Notes under the pieces: model-generated
Seen by the model: the letters and a program-made list of their open reading frames with translations, nothing else
The model's database searches: none
Told to the model about the DNA's origin: nothing
Program-made: the position numbers and the translations under genes
Shown: one piece after another, positions 7,366 to 52,703 of the stretch
Layout: each line of letters starts with the position of its first letter
Numbering within the stretch: the stretch's first letter is position 1
Assembly (NCBI RefSeq): GCF_004343305.1
Contig: NZ_SMAF01000005.1
Span: 1-64,000 of the forward strand
Direction: 5' to 3'
Length of the DNA stretch: 64,000 nucleotides
Source of the DNA: Pseudofulvimonas gallinarii
Lineage (GTDB): Bacteria > Pseudomonadota > Gammaproteobacteria > Xanthomonadales > UBA2363

Positions 7366-7806
7366 GTGAAGAATCCGACCCGCACGGCCAACGCAGTTCC
7401 CGTACCGGCGCCTGCCTGTGCGGCCGCCAGCGGCGCGATCAGCGAAGACGACATCGTCGCCCTGGTACACCGTTTCTACGCGAATGTACGCGAGGACGCC
7501 GTGCTCGGCCCGATCTTCACCCGCCATGTCGACGACTGGGACGCCCACCTTGCGTTGCTGGTGGATTTCTGGTCGGCGCTGCTGCGCGGTACGCGCCGGT
7601 TTCGCGGCGCGCCCGTGACCCGCCACAACGCCCTGCCAGGCCTGGACGCGGCGCTGTTCGAACGCTGGCTGGCGCTCTTCGATGCAACCACGACGTCGCT
7701 CGGTCATCCGCTGCTGAAGGCGGAGGCTGACGCGCAGGCGCGCCTGATCGCGACACGGCTGTGGCAGCGCTACCGTGAAAACGCGGAATCCGGGCGCGAC
7801 GGGTGA
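7366..7806 (+). CDS. Group III truncated haemoglobin-like protein
   Basis: A 146-residue cytosolic globin of the 2-on-2 type, expected to bind haem and handle O2 or NO. After a 25-residue Ala/Pro-rich extension the globin fold starts (ISEDDIVALVHRFYANVREDAVLGPIF, here quoted in two parts: ISEDDIVALVHRFY and VREDAVLGPIF). The motif DWDAHLALLVDFW contains His61, which fits the E7 position of Campylobacter Ctb-like group III globins. TRHNALPGL contains His87, the probable proximal haem ligand. Start is GTG at 7366; an internal start would trim the extension but not the fold. The next gene, moaB, begins 22 bp downstream on the same strand. Confidence 0.8.
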   Translation: MKNPTRTANAVPVPAPACAAASGAISEDDIVALVHRFYANVREDAVLGPIFTRHVDDWDAHLALLVDFWSALLRGTRRFRGAPVTRHNALPGLDAALFERWLALFDATTTSLGHPLLKAEADAQARLIATRLWQRYRENAESGRDG

Positions 7807-47264: not shown

Positions 47265-49802
47265 TCAGCGGCGCTGGCCGGCTTCCTCGATGTCGGTGCG
47301 CAGCGGCTTGAGCCAGGCGTTGAACTGGTCGCCCGACACGCCCATCGCCGCGTAGCTGGCCTCGGCGTCGGCCAGCGCGGCGCGCGCGTGCGGCAGCCGC
47401 CGCAAAGCCAGCAGCGCACGTGCTCGACCGGCATGCAGCATCGCCTGCAACGACGGATTGCCCCCCTGCGCATCGAGGCGTTCCTGCACGGAAGCCAGCA
47501 CCGCCAGCGCGTCGTCGCCACGGCCCATGCGCGCATAACTGCCGGCCAGCGCGATGCGCAGCGTCAGGATGGAAGGATTGTCGCCTCCGCCCTGCCCGCT
47601 GGCCATGGTCACGGCGCGATGCAGGGTTTCAGCCGCCTCCTCGTAACGCTGCTGGTAGAGGATGCTGGTGCCGAGGCTGCCGAGCAGCAGTGCGCTATCC
47701 AGCGATGCCTCACCATAGAGCTGGTCGCGCAGGCCGATCAGTTCGCGATAGGTTGACTCCGCCTCGGCATGGCGTCCCTGCGCGGTGAGGATGCTGGCGC
47801 GCGTGCCGAGCAGCGCGATGGCGTTGCTGCTGCCGCTCTGTCCGATGTCGAGCGCCTGCTGGATGGCCAGCGCGCGATCCGACGCTTCGCCCGCCTGGTC
47901 GAAACGGAAAGCCGCCATCAGCGTGATGGCGAGGTTGTTGTAGGCGTCGGCCAGCGCCTCGTCCGGCGTCGGCAGCAGCCTGTGGCGCTCCTCGATCACC
48001 GCCTGCTGGATGGCCAGCGCCTCGTTGAGCTGGCCCATGCCGCGCAGGATCTGCGCACGCATGCCCTGGCTGTCGTTGATCGCCAGCGCATTGCGCGCCG
48101 GCGCCCTGCGCCAGATCGCCTGGGCGTGGTCGAGATGTTCCAGCGCGCGGTCCGGCTGGCCACGCCGGTATTCGAGCTGGCCCTGCAACGCGTTCGCCCG
48201 CGCCAGCGTGTCGGCGTCGGCCTGTGGGCCGGATGCCGAAAGGATGCGTTCCAGCAGGGGCCGCGCACCTTCGGTGTCGCCCATCGCCAGGTACAGCTCG
48301 GCCACCATCAGCGCCGTGGTGTAGCCGGTGCCCGTGTCGTTGCGGAACTGCGAGAACAGCCGCGCGCTGCTGCGCGACAGGATCTCGCGCGCACTGACGT
48401 CGCCCTCGCCTTCGCGATCGGCGGCGACACGGAACATCAGTGCGATGTAGTCACGCACCGCGTTGCTGCGTTTCAGTTCGGTCTGCGCCAGTTCGCGTTG
48501 TTGCCGCTCGCTGTACGCGCGCTCCAGCGCCCAGGCCAGCGAAACCAGCAGACCGACCAGCAGCGCGACCACCAGCGATACCGCGACGGCATTCCGGGTC
48601 ACGAACTTGCGCAGGCGGTAGGCCCAGCCGCGGCCGGACACCTTGACCGGTGCGCCGGCGAGCCAGCGGCGCAGGTCGTCGGCGAAGGCGTCGACCGTGG
48701 CGTAGCGCTGCGGCACCTCGACCGCCAGCGCCTTGCCGAGAATGCGGTTGAGATCGCCGCGCACGGCGGACAGGTAGCTGCGCATGGCCTGGCCGCGACG
48801 CGCCAGGCGCTGCGTCACCGTTTCGTCTTCGTCGCCGCCGCCGGCATCGGCGCCGCGAAGGATCGCCGTGCCCAGCGAAGGCACCGGCCGGGTACGCATG
48901 CGATGCTGCGCGGCCAGCAGGTCATGCCGGTCGACGTCATGCGGGAGCGCGCCGCTGACCAGTTCGTAGAGGATCACGCCCAGGGCATATACATCGGCGG
49001 CGACGCCGGCCGGCTCGCCCGCCAGCTGTTCGGGCGCGGCGTATTCCGGTGTGAATGCCATCAACGGTCCCGCCGCCGTCATCGTCAACTCGGCTTCGGC
49101 TTCATCGTGCAGCAACCGCGAAATGCCGAAGTCGAGCAGACGCACCACGCCCTGCTCGTCCACCATCACGTTGCCGGGCTTCAGGTCGCGGTGGACCACC
49201 AGCTGCGTGTGTGCGTACTGCACGGCCGCGCAGACATCGAGAAACAGCCGCACGCGGGCGCGCACGTCCAGCCGCCGTTGGTCGCACCAGCTGCGGATGG
49301 ACTCCCCCTGCACCAGCTCCATGGCGAACCAGGGCCGCTGGTCGGCGGTGACGCCGCCGTCGACCAGTCGCGCCAGGTTGGGATGGCTGAGCCGCGCGAG
49401 GATGCGGCGCTCGCGCAGGAAGCGCTGCTGCACATCGTCGTAGTCGAAACCGCGGCGGATCAACTTGATCGCCACCGTCTGCGCGAAGCCGCCCTCCTCG
49501 CGTTCTCCGCGGTAGACAACACCCATGCCACCGCGGCCGATGCGCTCCCGGATGCGGAACGGCCCCAGGCGCTGGCCGAGCATGGCGTCCGTGGCGGCGC
49601 CACGGGGGCGGTCGTCGTCGCCATGCACCCATGTCGCGGTGCCGCTTTCAATCGCTTCGGCGTCGCGCAGCAGCGCTTCGGCGGCGGAAAGCAATGCCGC
49701 GTCGCCAGCGCACTGGGCGGAAACGAAATCGCCGCGGTCACCGGGCTGCCGTTCCAGCGCGGCGCGAACCAGCTTCAGCAGACGCGGATCGTCGAGGTCC
49801 AT
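47265..49802 (-). CDS. Membrane Ser/Thr protein kinase with TPR repeats, sigma-factor partner
   Basis: An 845-residue kinase built like the one at 4501-7233. The kinase domain spans about 82-380: GRGGMG at 89-94, Lys113, HRDLKPGN at 204-211 and DFG at 224-226, so it should be active. One transmembrane helix is near 404-425. About 400 residues of TPR-like helices follow, probably periplasmic. It starts 36 bp after the stop of an ECF-type sigma gene on the same strand, an arrangement seen repeatedly in Xanthomonadales and thought to link kinase output and sigma activity. Targets are unknown. Confidence 0.87.
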   Translation of the reverse strand: MDLDDPRLLKLVRAALERQPGDRGDFVSAQCAGDAALLSAAEALLRDAEAIESGTATWVHGDDDRPRGAATDAMLGQRLGPFRIRERIGRGGMGVVYRGEREEGGFAQTVAIKLIRRGFDYDDVQQRFLRERRILARLSHPNLARLVDGGVTADQRPWFAMELVQGESIRSWCDQRRLDVRARVRLFLDVCAAVQYAHTQLVVHRDLKPGNVMVDEQGVVRLLDFGISRLLHDEAEAELTMTAAGPLMAFTPEYAAPEQLAGEPAGVAADVYALGVILYELVSGALPHDVDRHDLLAAQHRMRTRPVPSLGTAILRGADAGGGDEDETVTQRLARRGQAMRSYLSAVRGDLNRILGKALAVEVPQRYATVDAFADDLRRWLAGAPVKVSGRGWAYRLRKFVTRNAVAVSLVVALLVGLLVSLAWALERAYSERQQRELAQTELKRSNAVRDYIALMFRVAADREGEGDVSAREILSRSSARLFSQFRNDTGTGYTTALMVAELYLAMGDTEGARPLLERILSASGPQADADTLARANALQGQLEYRRGQPDRALEHLDHAQAIWRRAPARNALAINDSQGMRAQILRGMGQLNEALAIQQAVIEERHRLLPTPDEALADAYNNLAITLMAAFRFDQAGEASDRALAIQQALDIGQSGSSNAIALLGTRASILTAQGRHAEAESTYRELIGLRDQLYGEASLDSALLLGSLGTSILYQQRYEEAAETLHRAVTMASGQGGGDNPSILTLRIALAGSYARMGRGDDALAVLASVQERLDAQGGNPSLQAMLHAGRARALLALRRLPHARAALADAEASYAAMGVSGDQFNAWLKPLRTDIEEAGQRR

Positions 49803-49838
49803 GATCGTTGGCGACGAGGGGAGCCGGATCGACCCGGC

Positions 49839-50405
49839 TCAGGTGGACAGCCTCGAGCGCAACCATGCCTGCGCGGTCGCCCAGTCGCGATGTACGGTGC
49901 GTCGCGCGACGCCGAGCGTGTCGGCGACCTGCTGCATGTCCAGGCCGACGAAGTAATGCAGTTCGACGACCTTGCTCATGCGGGCGTCGATCGATTCCAG
50001 CACCGTCAGCGCCTGGTCCAGTTCGGCCAGATCGGTGCCATCGGGAATCGGCAGGTCGAGTGCGGCCGTGAAGGCATCGCGGCGCCAGCCGCCTCCGCGC
50101 TTGCCGGTCGCCGCCGCCCGAGCGCGGCTGACCAGGGTCTGACGCATCATCAGCGCGGCGGCATTGATCAGGTGCGCGGTGTTGTGGAAATCGGCTGCCG
50201 GCCGGTCCAGCAGCTTTAGCAGCACGTCGTGGACCAGCGCCGTAGCCTGCATCGTGGTGTGGCCGGCGTGGCCACGCAGCTGGCCGGCGGCCAGCCTCCG
50301 CAGCTCGGCATAGACCATCGGCAGCAGCCGCTCGAGCGCGCTCCGGTCGCCGTCGCGCCAGCGATGCAGCAGTTGCGTGACCTCGCCGTCGGAAGCCGTA
50401 GCCAT
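49839..50405 (-). CDS. ECF-type RNA polymerase sigma factor
   Basis: A 188-residue sigma-70 family factor of the group often called the TIGR02999-like family. Region 2 appears as LLPMVYAELRRLAAGQLRGHAG (residues about 25-46, key YAELRRLA). Region 4 follows as VVELHYFVGLDMQQVADTLGVARRTVHRDW (key GLDxQQVAxxLGVxxRTVxRDW), a helix-turn-helix. No anti-sigma factor gene adjoins it; the neighbouring transmembrane kinase probably fills a regulatory role. ATG at 50405 (MATASDGEVTQLL) matches the family start. Confidence 0.87.
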   Translation of the reverse strand: MATASDGEVTQLLHRWRDGDRSALERLLPMVYAELRRLAAGQLRGHAGHTTMQATALVHDVLLKLLDRPAADFHNTAHLINAAALMMRQTLVSRARAAATGKRGGGWRRDAFTAALDLPIPDGTDLAELDQALTVLESIDARMSKVVELHYFVGLDMQQVADTLGVARRTVHRDWATAQAWLRSRLST

Positions 50406-50466
50406 GGCCGGAAAGTAGCGGCACCGATGCCGCAGGTAAAGCGCCGCGGCCTGGTGGGCGACGACG

Positions 50467-50766
50467 TCAGGGCACGCCGGGGAAGTGGTCGACGAGCTTG
50501 ATCGTGAAATCGGGGAAATGGTCGACGATCTGGATGGTGAAATCCGGGAAGTTGTCCACCCGCTTCCATTTCCCTGCCGAATCGGGGAAATGGTCAACCC
50601 ATTGCACGTGCAGGTCGGCGAAATGATCGACGATCTTCACCTTGTAGTCGGCGAAGTGCTCGACGATCCTGACCTTGCCGTACAGACGCGAGAGATCGAC
50701 CTCGGCGGCATGGACCGGCATGCCGACCACGGCCGGCAACACCATCCAGAACAGTGCGCGCTTCAT
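50467..50766 (-). CDS. Exported short-repeat protein, probable 7(1) septoil-knot domain
   Basis: A 99-residue exported protein. The signal peptide is MKRALFWMVLPAVVGMPVHAA (residues 1-21, shown in parts here: ALFWMVLPAVVG). The mature part is six near-identical strand units of 11-13 residues with the core [KT]-[VI]-x-[IVLW]-V-[DE]-[HN]-F-[AP]-D: VRIVEHFADY, VKIVDHFADL, VQWVDHFPDSAG, WKRVDNFPDF, IQIVDHFPDF, IKLVDHFPGVP. This repeat, including the GKW step after the third unit, is what I recall for the Pfam septoil-knot family, which AlphaFold predicts to form a 7(1) torus knot. It lies between uup and the sigma gene on the same strand, 61 bp before the sigma start. Function is unknown. Confidence 0.6.
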   Translation of the reverse strand: MKRALFWMVLPAVVGMPVHAAEVDLSRLYGKVRIVEHFADYKVKIVDHFADLHVQWVDHFPDSAGKWKRVDNFPDFTIQIVDHFPDFTIKLVDHFPGVP

Positions 50767-50810
50767 CGCAGCTCCTCCATGGCCGGACCCGCCGGCACCG
50801 GTGAACAACT

Positions 50811-52703
50811 CTATTCCAGTTCCGCCCAGCGCGCATAGGCCGCTTCCAGCTCGGCCTGCAGCTGTCCGAGGCGCGCGTTGTGTTCCATGATCGCGGCGCT
50901 GTCGCGACGGTAGAAGGCCGGATCCGTCATCTCCGCGGTGAGCGCGGCGATGGTGCTTTCCAGTGCTTCGATGCGGCCGGGGAGCTGTTCGAGTTCGCGC
51001 GCATCCTTGTAGCTGAGCTTGCGCCGCGCCGGCGCGCCCGCAGCAGGTCCGGCGTTGCTTCCGGGCTCGCGCGCGCCACTGCCGGCTGCCTGCCGGGGTG
51101 CCGTCGAAGCGGGTTCCGCCGGCGCCGGCCGCTGGCGCAACCAGTCGCTGTAGCCGCCGACGTATTCGCCGACGCGACCATCGCCTTCCATCACCAGCGT
51201 CGAGGTGACGACGTTGTCGAGGAAGTCGCGATCATGGCTGACCAGCAGCAGCGTGCCCGGGTACTCGCCGAGCAGTTCCTCGAGCAGCTCCAGCGTCTCG
51301 ACATCCAGGTCGTTGGTCGGTTCGTCCATCACCAGCAGGTTCGCCGGCTGCGCGAACAGGCGCGCCAGCAGCAGGCGGTTGCGTTCGCCGCCGGACAGGC
51401 GGGTAATCGGCGCCCGTGCGCGGTCCGGCGTGAACAGGAAGTCCTGCAGATAGCCCATCACGTGCTTGCGGACGCCACCCACCTCGACGTATTCCTGGCC
51501 CTGGCTGACGTTGTCCAGCGCGTTCCAGTCCTCGCGCAGGCTGGCACGGTGCTGGTCGAAATAGGCGATCTGCAGCTGCGTGCCCAGCTCCACTTCGCCC
51601 CGCTGCGCCTTCAGTTCGCCGAGCAGCAGGCGCAGCAGCGTGGTCTTGCCGCTGCCGTTGGCGCCGATCAGGCCGATGCGGTCACCGCGCAGGATGGTGG
51701 TGTCGAAATCGCGCACCAGCACGCGGTCGCCGTAGGCGAAGTGCAGGCCCCGTGCCTGGACCACCTTTCGCCCGGACCGCCCGGCTTCCGCCAGTCCGAG
51801 GCTGACGTTGCCCTGCAGCTCACGGCGCTGCGCGCGCTCGGCGCGCATCGCCTTCAGCCGTCGGACACGGCCTTCGTCACGGGTCCGGCGCGCCTTGATG
51901 CCCTGCCGGATCCACGCTTCCTCCTGCGCCAGCATCTTGTCGAAGCGGGCGTTCTCCAGCGCCTGCGCGTGCAGGCGTTCGTCGCGACGCCGCAGGTAGT
52001 TGTCCCAGTCGCCCGGCCAGCTGGTGACCTGGCCACGGTCGATCTCGACGATGCGCGTCGCCAGCGCGCGGACGAAGCGGCGGTCATGGCTGACGAACAC
52101 CAGTGCGCCGGCGAAGCCCTTGAGGAAACCTTCCAGCCAGTCGATCGACTCGATGTCCAGGTGGTTGGTTGGCTCGTCGAGCAGCAGGATGTCCGGTGCC
52201 GACGCCAGCGCCCGCGCCAGCAGGACGCGGCGCTTCATGCCGCCGGACAGGCCATCGAACCGCGCGCGGCCGTCCAGGCCCAGGCGCGTCAGTGTTTCGG
52301 TGACGCGATTGTCCAGCGTCCAGCCCTGGGCGGCCTCGATGCGCGCCTGCACCTGCGCCAGCGCCTCGGTGTCGAGGTCTTCGGCGTCGAGCAGATGGTG
52401 GTAGCGGGCCAGCCAGTCGCCAAGTTCGCCCAGGCCGCCGGCGACGACGTCGAAGACATCCCCACCCTGTCCTGCCGGCACTTCCTGTTCGAGGCGGGCG
52501 ATGCGGACGCCGCCCTGCACGCGCATGTCGCCGTCGTCCGGTTTCAGTTCGCCCGACAGCAGTTTCAGCAGCGTGGACTTGCCGGCGCCATTGCGCCCGA
52601 CCAGCGCGATGCGCTCGCCGGGTTCGATCGCCAGGTCGACGTGTTCAAGCAACAGGGGACCGCCGACGCTGAAGTCAACGCCGTGCATGTTCAGAAGGGC
52701 CAT
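50811..52703 (-). CDS. uup: ABC-F ATPase Uup
   Basis: Uup is a cytosolic ABC-F ATPase affecting ribosome function and transposon excision. The 630-residue protein has two ABC domains: Walker A GRNGAGKS at 36-43 with LSGGMKRR at 152-159 and LLLDEPTN at 173-180, and a second with GANGSGKT near 343 and LSGGERNR near 440. The linker between them has the ABC-F arm, and a C-terminal coiled-coil from about 560 (REHNARLGQLQAEL-like) is the Uup-specific DNA-binding part. ATG at 52703 (MALLNMHGVDFSVGG) is chosen; the long open frame upstream is not related. Confidence 0.92.
   Translation of the reverse strand: MALLNMHGVDFSVGGPLLLEHVDLAIEPGERIALVGRNGAGKSTLLKLLSGELKPDDGDMRVQGGVRIARLEQEVPAGQGGDVFDVVAGGLGELGDWLARYHHLLDAEDLDTEALAQVQARIEAAQGWTLDNRVTETLTRLGLDGRARFDGLSGGMKRRVLLARALASAPDILLLDEPTNHLDIESIDWLEGFLKGFAGALVFVSHDRRFVRALATRIVEIDRGQVTSWPGDWDNYLRRRDERLHAQALENARFDKMLAQEEAWIRQGIKARRTRDEGRVRRLKAMRAERAQRRELQGNVSLGLAEAGRSGRKVVQARGLHFAYGDRVLVRDFDTTILRGDRIGLIGANGSGKTTLLRLLLGELKAQRGEVELGTQLQIAYFDQHRASLREDWNALDNVSQGQEYVEVGGVRKHVMGYLQDFLFTPDRARAPITRLSGGERNRLLLARLFAQPANLLVMDEPTNDLDVETLELLEELLGEYPGTLLLVSHDRDFLDNVVTSTLVMEGDGRVGEYVGGYSDWLRQRPAPAEPASTAPRQAAGSGAREPGSNAGPAAGAPARRKLSYKDARELEQLPGRIEALESTIAALTAEMTDPAFYRRDSAAIMEHNARLGQLQAELEAAYARWAELE

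Follow-up and report, generated by a model that had tools for sequence, protein, structure and literature searches.

A probably exported member of the UU089.1 knotted-protein family in Pseudofulvimonas gallinarii, with moron-like relatives on viral contigs

A knot in a protein may confer resistance to pulling and to proteases. The secretion pore passes an unfolded chain only, and the knot of an exported protein must form afterwards. A small gene of Pseudofulvimonas gallinarii, set among the genes of an ABC-F type ATPase, an ECF sigma factor and a Ser/Thr protein kinase, raises the question of what an exported and probably knotted protein does for its cell, and whether it serves the signalling genes at its side. 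The first-pass annotation of this DNA had assigned the product to a ‘septoil-knot’ family and had suggested that it might be a ligand or envelope part of the sigma factor and kinase unit. In this work, we describe the gene, its family and its predicted fold, the setting of its relatives in bacterial genomes and on viral contigs, and the function that these would suggest. Throughout, the window is the whole stretch of DNA that was analysed, 64,000 nucleotides long (NZ_SMAF01000005.1, positions 1-64,000; assembly GCF_004343305.1).

The features of the locus are collected in Table 1. The knot gene had been placed at the right coordinates with its strand left out; it is read from the minus strand, with its ATG at 50766, its last codon at 50470 and its stop codon at 50467-50469. 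Residues 1-20 of the product, MKRALFWMVLPAVVGMPVHA, resemble a signal peptide when judged by eye and by hydropathy, which supports the earlier claim of export, and the predicted mature chain has 79 aa and lacks any cysteine. The pattern [VI][DE][HN]F[AP] begins at residues 35, 46, 57, 70, 81 and 92 (spacing 11, 11, 13, 11 and 11), six occurrences in the mature chain against a maximum of 2 among 100,000 shuffles of it. The six strand units described at first sight, with GKW opening the fourth, are thus borne out with minor deviations from the formula then given: unit 1 reads E-H-F, unit 4 reads D-N-F, and unit 6 ends in F-P-G instead of F-P-D. Judged by its homologues, the gene is real, since relatives are found in other groups (five, at 34-64% identity, in records named accordingly) and, within the order, in 23 of the 100 further genomes searched. 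It is present as a single copy in its own genome (E<=0.001). Its GC3 is 0.84, beside 0.85-0.86 for its three neighbours; its overall GC of 0.59 lies below their 0.69-0.70, perhaps owing to the residue makeup of the repeat. A 117-aa plus-strand ORF (50485-50838) overlaps the gene in antisense and was taken as a shadow ORF.

Table 1. Position and basis of the knot gene, its parts and its neighbours in the window
Feature	Positions	Strand	Basis
CDS of the 99-aa knot-family protein	50467..50766	-	ORF; phmmer match to PDB 8iwa, E=1.2e-5; phrog_6462, E=1.2e-23
Putative signal peptide, residues 1-20, ending VHA before AEVD	50707..50766	-	Cleavage site by eye; 12-residue hydropathy maximum 2.14
Six strand units, residues 30-97	50476..50679	-	Motif count, AlphaFold secondary structure, 8iwa superposition
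GKW loop, residues 65-67	50566..50574	-	Alignment; G65 and W67 invariant in 28 aligned sequences
ABC-F type ATPase, upstream	50811..52703	-	Pfam: two ABC_tran stretches, ABC_tran_Xtn, C-terminal domain
ECF sigma factor PF07638, downstream	49839..50405	-	Pfam E=4e-42
Ser/Thr protein kinase with TPRs, next downstream	47265..49802	-	Pfam Pkinase E=1.6e-42

A phmmer search against all PDB sequences returned a sole significant match, the Ureaplasma protein UU089.1 (Q9PR55; 8iwa and four more entries, 8iwb, 8iwc, 8jrm and 8w68), and a 28-sequence profile returned the same single match at E=9.5e-15, with no other PDB sequence at E<=1. The two alignments are offset by one repeat unit in register, as is natural for a repeat protein. 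In PHROGs, residues 26-99 match positions 30-103 of the phrog_6462 profile, which is also matched by the viral-contig relatives L086 (6e-46), L083 (2.1e-28) and L085 (1.6e-18); this family, annotated there as of unknown function, is the sole model found for the window protein. Pfam and NCBIfam hold no model for it, the matches to Na_Ala_symp, LAMB4, agcS and tnaC_leader being weak and far below cut-offs. Of the original family assignment, the homology to the 7_1-knot protein therefore stands, as does the fold with a caveat discussed below, and the expected Pfam family does not; nor was ‘septoil knot’ found in the literature searched as the name of a protein family, the phrase being met in work on soft-matter rings. 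The homology identifies the window protein, with its export signal, as a member of the Q9PR55 knotted-protein family, phrog_6462, and the gene as a new exported member of a family already in PHROGs without a function and, as far as seen, without a link to the knot. Whereas phrog_6462 has viral members, the window copy lies in a chromosome, with no phage gene among the three neighbours identified.

The two proteins are of similar length (89 aa for Q9PR55, 79 aa for the mature window chain), and the units of Q9PR55, homologous in sequence, carry SF-PD. They differ in that the window protein has a signal peptide, more regular units and a shorter C-terminal tail, and in that its GKW loop stands where Q9PR55 has a degenerate stretch. 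Q9PR55 is the one solved member of the family and has the most complicated knot known in any protein. According to Brems et al. 2022 (PMC9278004), the knot predicted by AlphaFold for Q9PR55 is 7_1, with its core at 27-83, and that for P73136, a homologue that the paper places in the same family, is 5_1, one winding fewer. The first-pass annotation had called the knot of the family predicted; it is no longer a prediction alone, the 7_1 knot of Q9PR55 having been confirmed by crystallography according to the accessible passages of a review and of the AlphaKnot 2.0 paper (PMC13352647, PMC11223836).

The AlphaFold2 model of the window protein, built from 19 aligned sequences, is confident (mean pLDDT 90.6, pTM 0.74) and has six strands, at mature residues 10-14, 21-25, 32-36, 46-49, 56-60 and 67-71. 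The accessible text of PMC10672856 warns that AlphaFold takes no account of topological barriers. With VIA-align, 65 residues of the model can be laid on 8iwa at an rmsd of 2.7 A, residues 1-75 of the model being matched to 12-81 of the chain; the Z of 7.7 falls short of 8, the value from which the tool regards a match as comfortable. The Foldseek search gave seven matches, the best four all Q9PR55 chains (E 1.1e-5 to 1.4e-3), yet its superposition on 8iwa is poor (TM 0.39, at most 0.40 on Q9PR55 chains; rmsd about 10 A). We read this high rmsd as a slip of one repeat in register, because the model of L086, a divergent phage relative (pLDDT 83.8), gives in Foldseek 10.2 A on 8iwa_A but 3.5 A on 8iwa_D (TM 0.56 and 0.61); VIA-align places that model at 3.2 A over 68 residues. 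Q9PR55 chains were the only ones listed by VIA-align among the 19 and 36 chains supplied, which proves no absence elsewhere, and a search of BFVD gave no match at E<=0.001. From the strand correspondence, the knot of the window protein is likely 7_1. A protein of the same family and equally exported might instead hold a 5_1 knot, or one too shallow to last, in a family that is topologically mixed, as the pairing of Q9PR55 with P73136 would allow; by the VIA mapping, moreover, the published end of the Q9PR55 core (83) falls near mature residue 77 of 79, and the C-terminal margin is therefore small. Against this, none of the six predicted strands falls outside the aligned range, and the number of strands would thus agree with that of the 7_1 protein. 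Both the 5_1 knot itself and this broader alternative appear to us rather unlikely, if well within consideration.

Export seems to be common in the family. Among the relatives, a hydrophobic stretch (12-residue mean >= 1.8, the ATG with the most hydrophobic stretch being chosen) marks 41 of the 46 N-termini that were scored. The rows of this count are not independent; the doubtful starts of L010 and L095 (-0.12 and 1.37) figure in it as having no signal, and of the 49 N-termini attempted the pattern left out three (L004, L098 and L099). By eye, these stretches are mostly signal peptides, and L003 perhaps has a lipoprotein signal. Eight members from one family of the order, f8 (L021, L022 and L024-L029), have by eye an N-terminal transmembrane anchor followed by a Ser-rich linker, with no cleavable signal. 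Three viral-contig members (L075:5007-5243, L076:4895-5143 and L077:5007-5255) are devoid of any signal peptide and are, from their sequences, apparently cytoplasmic versions of the knot protein.

Cysteines are coupled across the family. One before unit 1 and one in the GxW loop are both present in 31 sequences, both missing in 22, and only one is present in six (n=59; Fisher p 4e-10, overstated since the rows are related). The count covers 59 of 61 unique sequences, two having been skipped, and L010, which was misparsed, belongs to the class with neither by eye too. The pair recurs in the viral members L083, L086 and L138, in a Bacteroidales metagenome-assembled genome (L004) and in genomes of the order that includes P. 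gallinarii. It likely forms a disulfide, as expected outside the cytoplasm, and such a bond would make untying harder by fastening the N-terminal tail at mid-chain.

The nearest candidates for a functional partner are the adjoining signalling genes, present as first described, with which the protein might be co-regulated or to which it might signal as a ligand, a sensor or an envelope part. On the minus strand, the ABC-F, knot, sigma factor and kinase genes follow one another with gaps of 44, 61 and 36 bp, and a simple scan of 49700-51100 detected no terminator-like and no promoter-like site, a weak result given that 0.6 and 0.1 are expected by chance. Furthermore, for the nearest tree relative of the window protein (L007/L031, genome G012; 66% identity, fork support 91), the gene immediately upstream encodes a kinase with TPRs too, and its stop overlaps the start of the knot gene. 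The arrangement is nevertheless not kept in relatives: in the flanks fetched for 29 other knot loci (L002-L006 and L031-L054, with L033 and L054 from one genome), several of which, L006, L032, L033, L035, L038 and L054 among them, are clipped by contig ends, the window sigma factor has 0/29 matches and the window kinase 1/29 (E<=1e-5), the latter at L031. The L031 kinase is not an ortholog of the window kinase, because the window kinase ranks 24th of 28 as a match for it in its own genome and the L031 kinase ranks 42nd of 50 as a match for the window kinase in the other. Since Ser/Thr kinase matches are abundant (30 in the window's genome, 46 in that of L031 and 12-66 across the nine genomes checked), one further knot-kinase adjacency is near what chance would give.

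The same genome harbours a second ECF sigma factor and kinase pair (L073, G000:C6:47222-49772), whose proteins are 62% and 45% identical to those of the window, and this paralogous pair has no knot gene. In both congeners, which lack the knot gene, an ECF-type sigma factor is matched at 41% identity some 2 kb past the ABC-F gene, the ORFs of that stretch having been read in one of them (G001). The ABC-F gene itself is context and lies outside any conserved unit. Other window neighbours gave weak or generic matches only when used as queries in the flanks of the knot loci, including the ABC-F gene in L039 (23%) and L052 (66 aa) and a protease in L041 (68 aa); a match of the mfd query in L052 is a RecG helicase by Pfam. 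As a conserved system, the proposed link to the sigma factor and kinase is largely refuted on these comparisons, which bear on that part of the original claim only. A role within this unit is very improbable, and the window protein is not a dedicated part of it.

The knot gene has a patchy presence in the order, where 24 of 101 genomes carry it, its own included; it is absent from both congeners searched. The phrog_6462 profile matches 38 of 398 genomes of the order, its own included, and none of 14 control genomes, and profile searches found two of 369 genomes in the class and six of 398 in the phylum, again with its own genome counted. Three relatives (37-42% identity over 72-73% of the query) lie on plasmid records, NZ_CP092209.1 and NZ_CP092208.1 of Leptospira weilii and NZ_CP156686.1 of Burkholderia stagnalis. 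In the Bacteroidales assembly JAAYIU010000461.1, one open frame (L004:7260-8216) holds two complete knot domains in tandem (HMM scores 84.8 and 124.0), with a likely signal-peptide start near 7615 in another frame, and the assembly copy may be frameshifted. If both of its domains fold as 8iwa, this protein would form a composite knot of up to 14 crossings.

Relatives of the gene are also found on viral contigs. Scans of IMG/VR returned 20 and then 22 viral-contig loci, and the 22 were grouped by us, from the protein and its neighbours, into 11 lineages. A PHROGs scan of one representative per lineage places genes for terminase, tail, baseplate or lysis functions in the neighbourhood in eight of the 11. 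In the remaining three (L078/L135, L079/L136 and L138), there are no confirmed phage structural neighbours, PHROGs giving only unknown families, a methyltransferase-like match and one weak tail-fibre match. A baseplate-hub setting is seen in four lineages (L083:4914-5204, L084:4917-5267, L085:4857-5219 and L086:5001-5306), in two positions and orientations: in the first three, the knot gene lies between the baseplate-hub families phrog_4930 and phrog_5233 and runs antiparallel to them, and in the L086 group it follows phrog_5564 in the baseplate region on the same strand. Elsewhere, it runs opposite to the genes of an endolysin and spanin pair, terminase genes being close by (L074), to a minor tail gene (L080-L082, from PHROGs on L082) or to a tail gene (L075), or lies in a small opposite cassette near terminase (L076/L077). 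It runs opposite to both neighbours in six of the 11 lineages when ORFs under 80 aa are ignored; with small ORFs counted, the orientation is clearly opposite in four and mixed in one, from ORF calls that are mechanical. These viral relatives, and not the window copy, are moron-like, being extra genes among late genes and in several lineages on the opposite strand.

Evidence for the viral setting comes from PHROGs and from IMG/VR contigs, which may in some cases include flanking host DNA. A collection of 50,697 phage records contained no match for three family queries, nor any for the DNA of the L086 region, and the contigs may therefore belong to prophages, or to phages seen only in host genomes or metagenomes. 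In a tree of 60 rows, the viral and chromosomal labels need eight changes, of which well-supported branches force only two, and they are more clustered than shuffled labels (mean 14 changes; none of 500 shuffles reaching so low a number). The changes speak for mobility, and the clustering speaks against the explanation favoured below. The five members tried match no PADLOC model. In the literature searched, with most subscription journals and bioRxiv lying outside it, no paper was found on knotted proteins and prophages, none of the titles listed links 7_1 knots with phages, and no function is given for the 7_1 knot; the coupled cysteines, the export and the viral contigs of the family did not come up in it either. 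The accessible portions of PMC11184937 and PMC10598012 add nothing on the function of the knot.

Taken as a whole, we consider that a stable, knot-stabilised envelope protein spread by prophages, perhaps acting in superinfection exclusion, explains the family best, a view that we hold with somewhat better than even confidence. In this explanation, the chain would be exported by the Sec route, its signal would be cleaved, and the 79-aa remainder would then wind into a torus-type knot in the periplasm, where the knot would provide a small scaffold that resists pulling and proteases. Such a protein would presumably act as a binder of some envelope target, with no catalytic role. Since phages carry the family as moron-like cargo and the products are targeted to the envelope, the ancestral task was most likely an envelope function expressed by the lysogen; chromosomal copies such as the window gene would have been acquired horizontally and then kept. 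Superinfection exclusion is put forward, by analogy, as a tentative first candidate for this function. According to the accessible parts of PMC3952083, Ltp of the temperate phage TP-J34 is a lipoprotein that excludes superinfecting phages by stopping DNA injection, and Glo is a soluble periplasmic protein of superinfection exclusion. The likeness to both lies in export, with no homology claimed. The gene of Ltp differs in its place, as it belongs to the lysogeny module, and late genes surround those knot genes that were examined. A bolder form of the idea, to which we give little credence, holds that the knot is itself a phage envelope device, in which exported prophage morons beside tail, baseplate or lysis genes block a superinfecting phage at a periplasmic step, the window gene is one of several domesticated copies, and the tandem L004 protein is possibly a double seven-crossing knot.

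The neighbours of the knot gene in chromosomes differ among groups and are steady inside some genera, and they speak for a host envelope factor with no phage role, namely a binding or stress protein of the periplasm that is occasionally acquired by phages. Pfam names for neighbours, taken from single representatives, include CorA, SulP, acetyl-CoA synthetase, a YfbK-like protein, CreD, an OPT transporter and a hexapeptide-repeat protein. A CorA-like gene lies upstream at three loci of one genus (by clustering, with Pfam on one), followed downstream of the knot gene by SulP in one (Pfam) and by ORFs of like size in the other two; an ORF of about 650 aa lies downstream in six of the eight transmembrane-anchored f8 members, five of these ORFs falling in one cluster, and is acetyl-CoA synthetase-like by Pfam in one locus (L045). 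Steady chromosomal loci fit a resident host role at least as well, and yet the several kinds of viral contigs and the moron-like positions on them count against it, so that we regard a purely host factor as a real but unlikely alternative. An origin as part of the virion, with chromosomal copies derived from tail genes, would account for the direct neighbourhood of phrog_4930, phrog_5233 or phrog_5564 in four of 11 lineages and for the viral members that lack a signal peptide. It is improbable, however, as most members have a hydrophobic signal that would carry them away from the cytoplasm, the site of virion assembly, and in three of those four lineages the knot gene is antiparallel to the tail genes.

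For the knot, the relatives on bacterial viruses are a first hint of its purpose. Together, the viral contigs, the envelope setting, the cysteine pair and the divergent sequences would give the knot a testable function. In addition, the natural variants of the family, with and without the likely disulfide, anchored in the membrane, lacking a signal or arranged in tandem, may serve to study how a knot forms after secretion.
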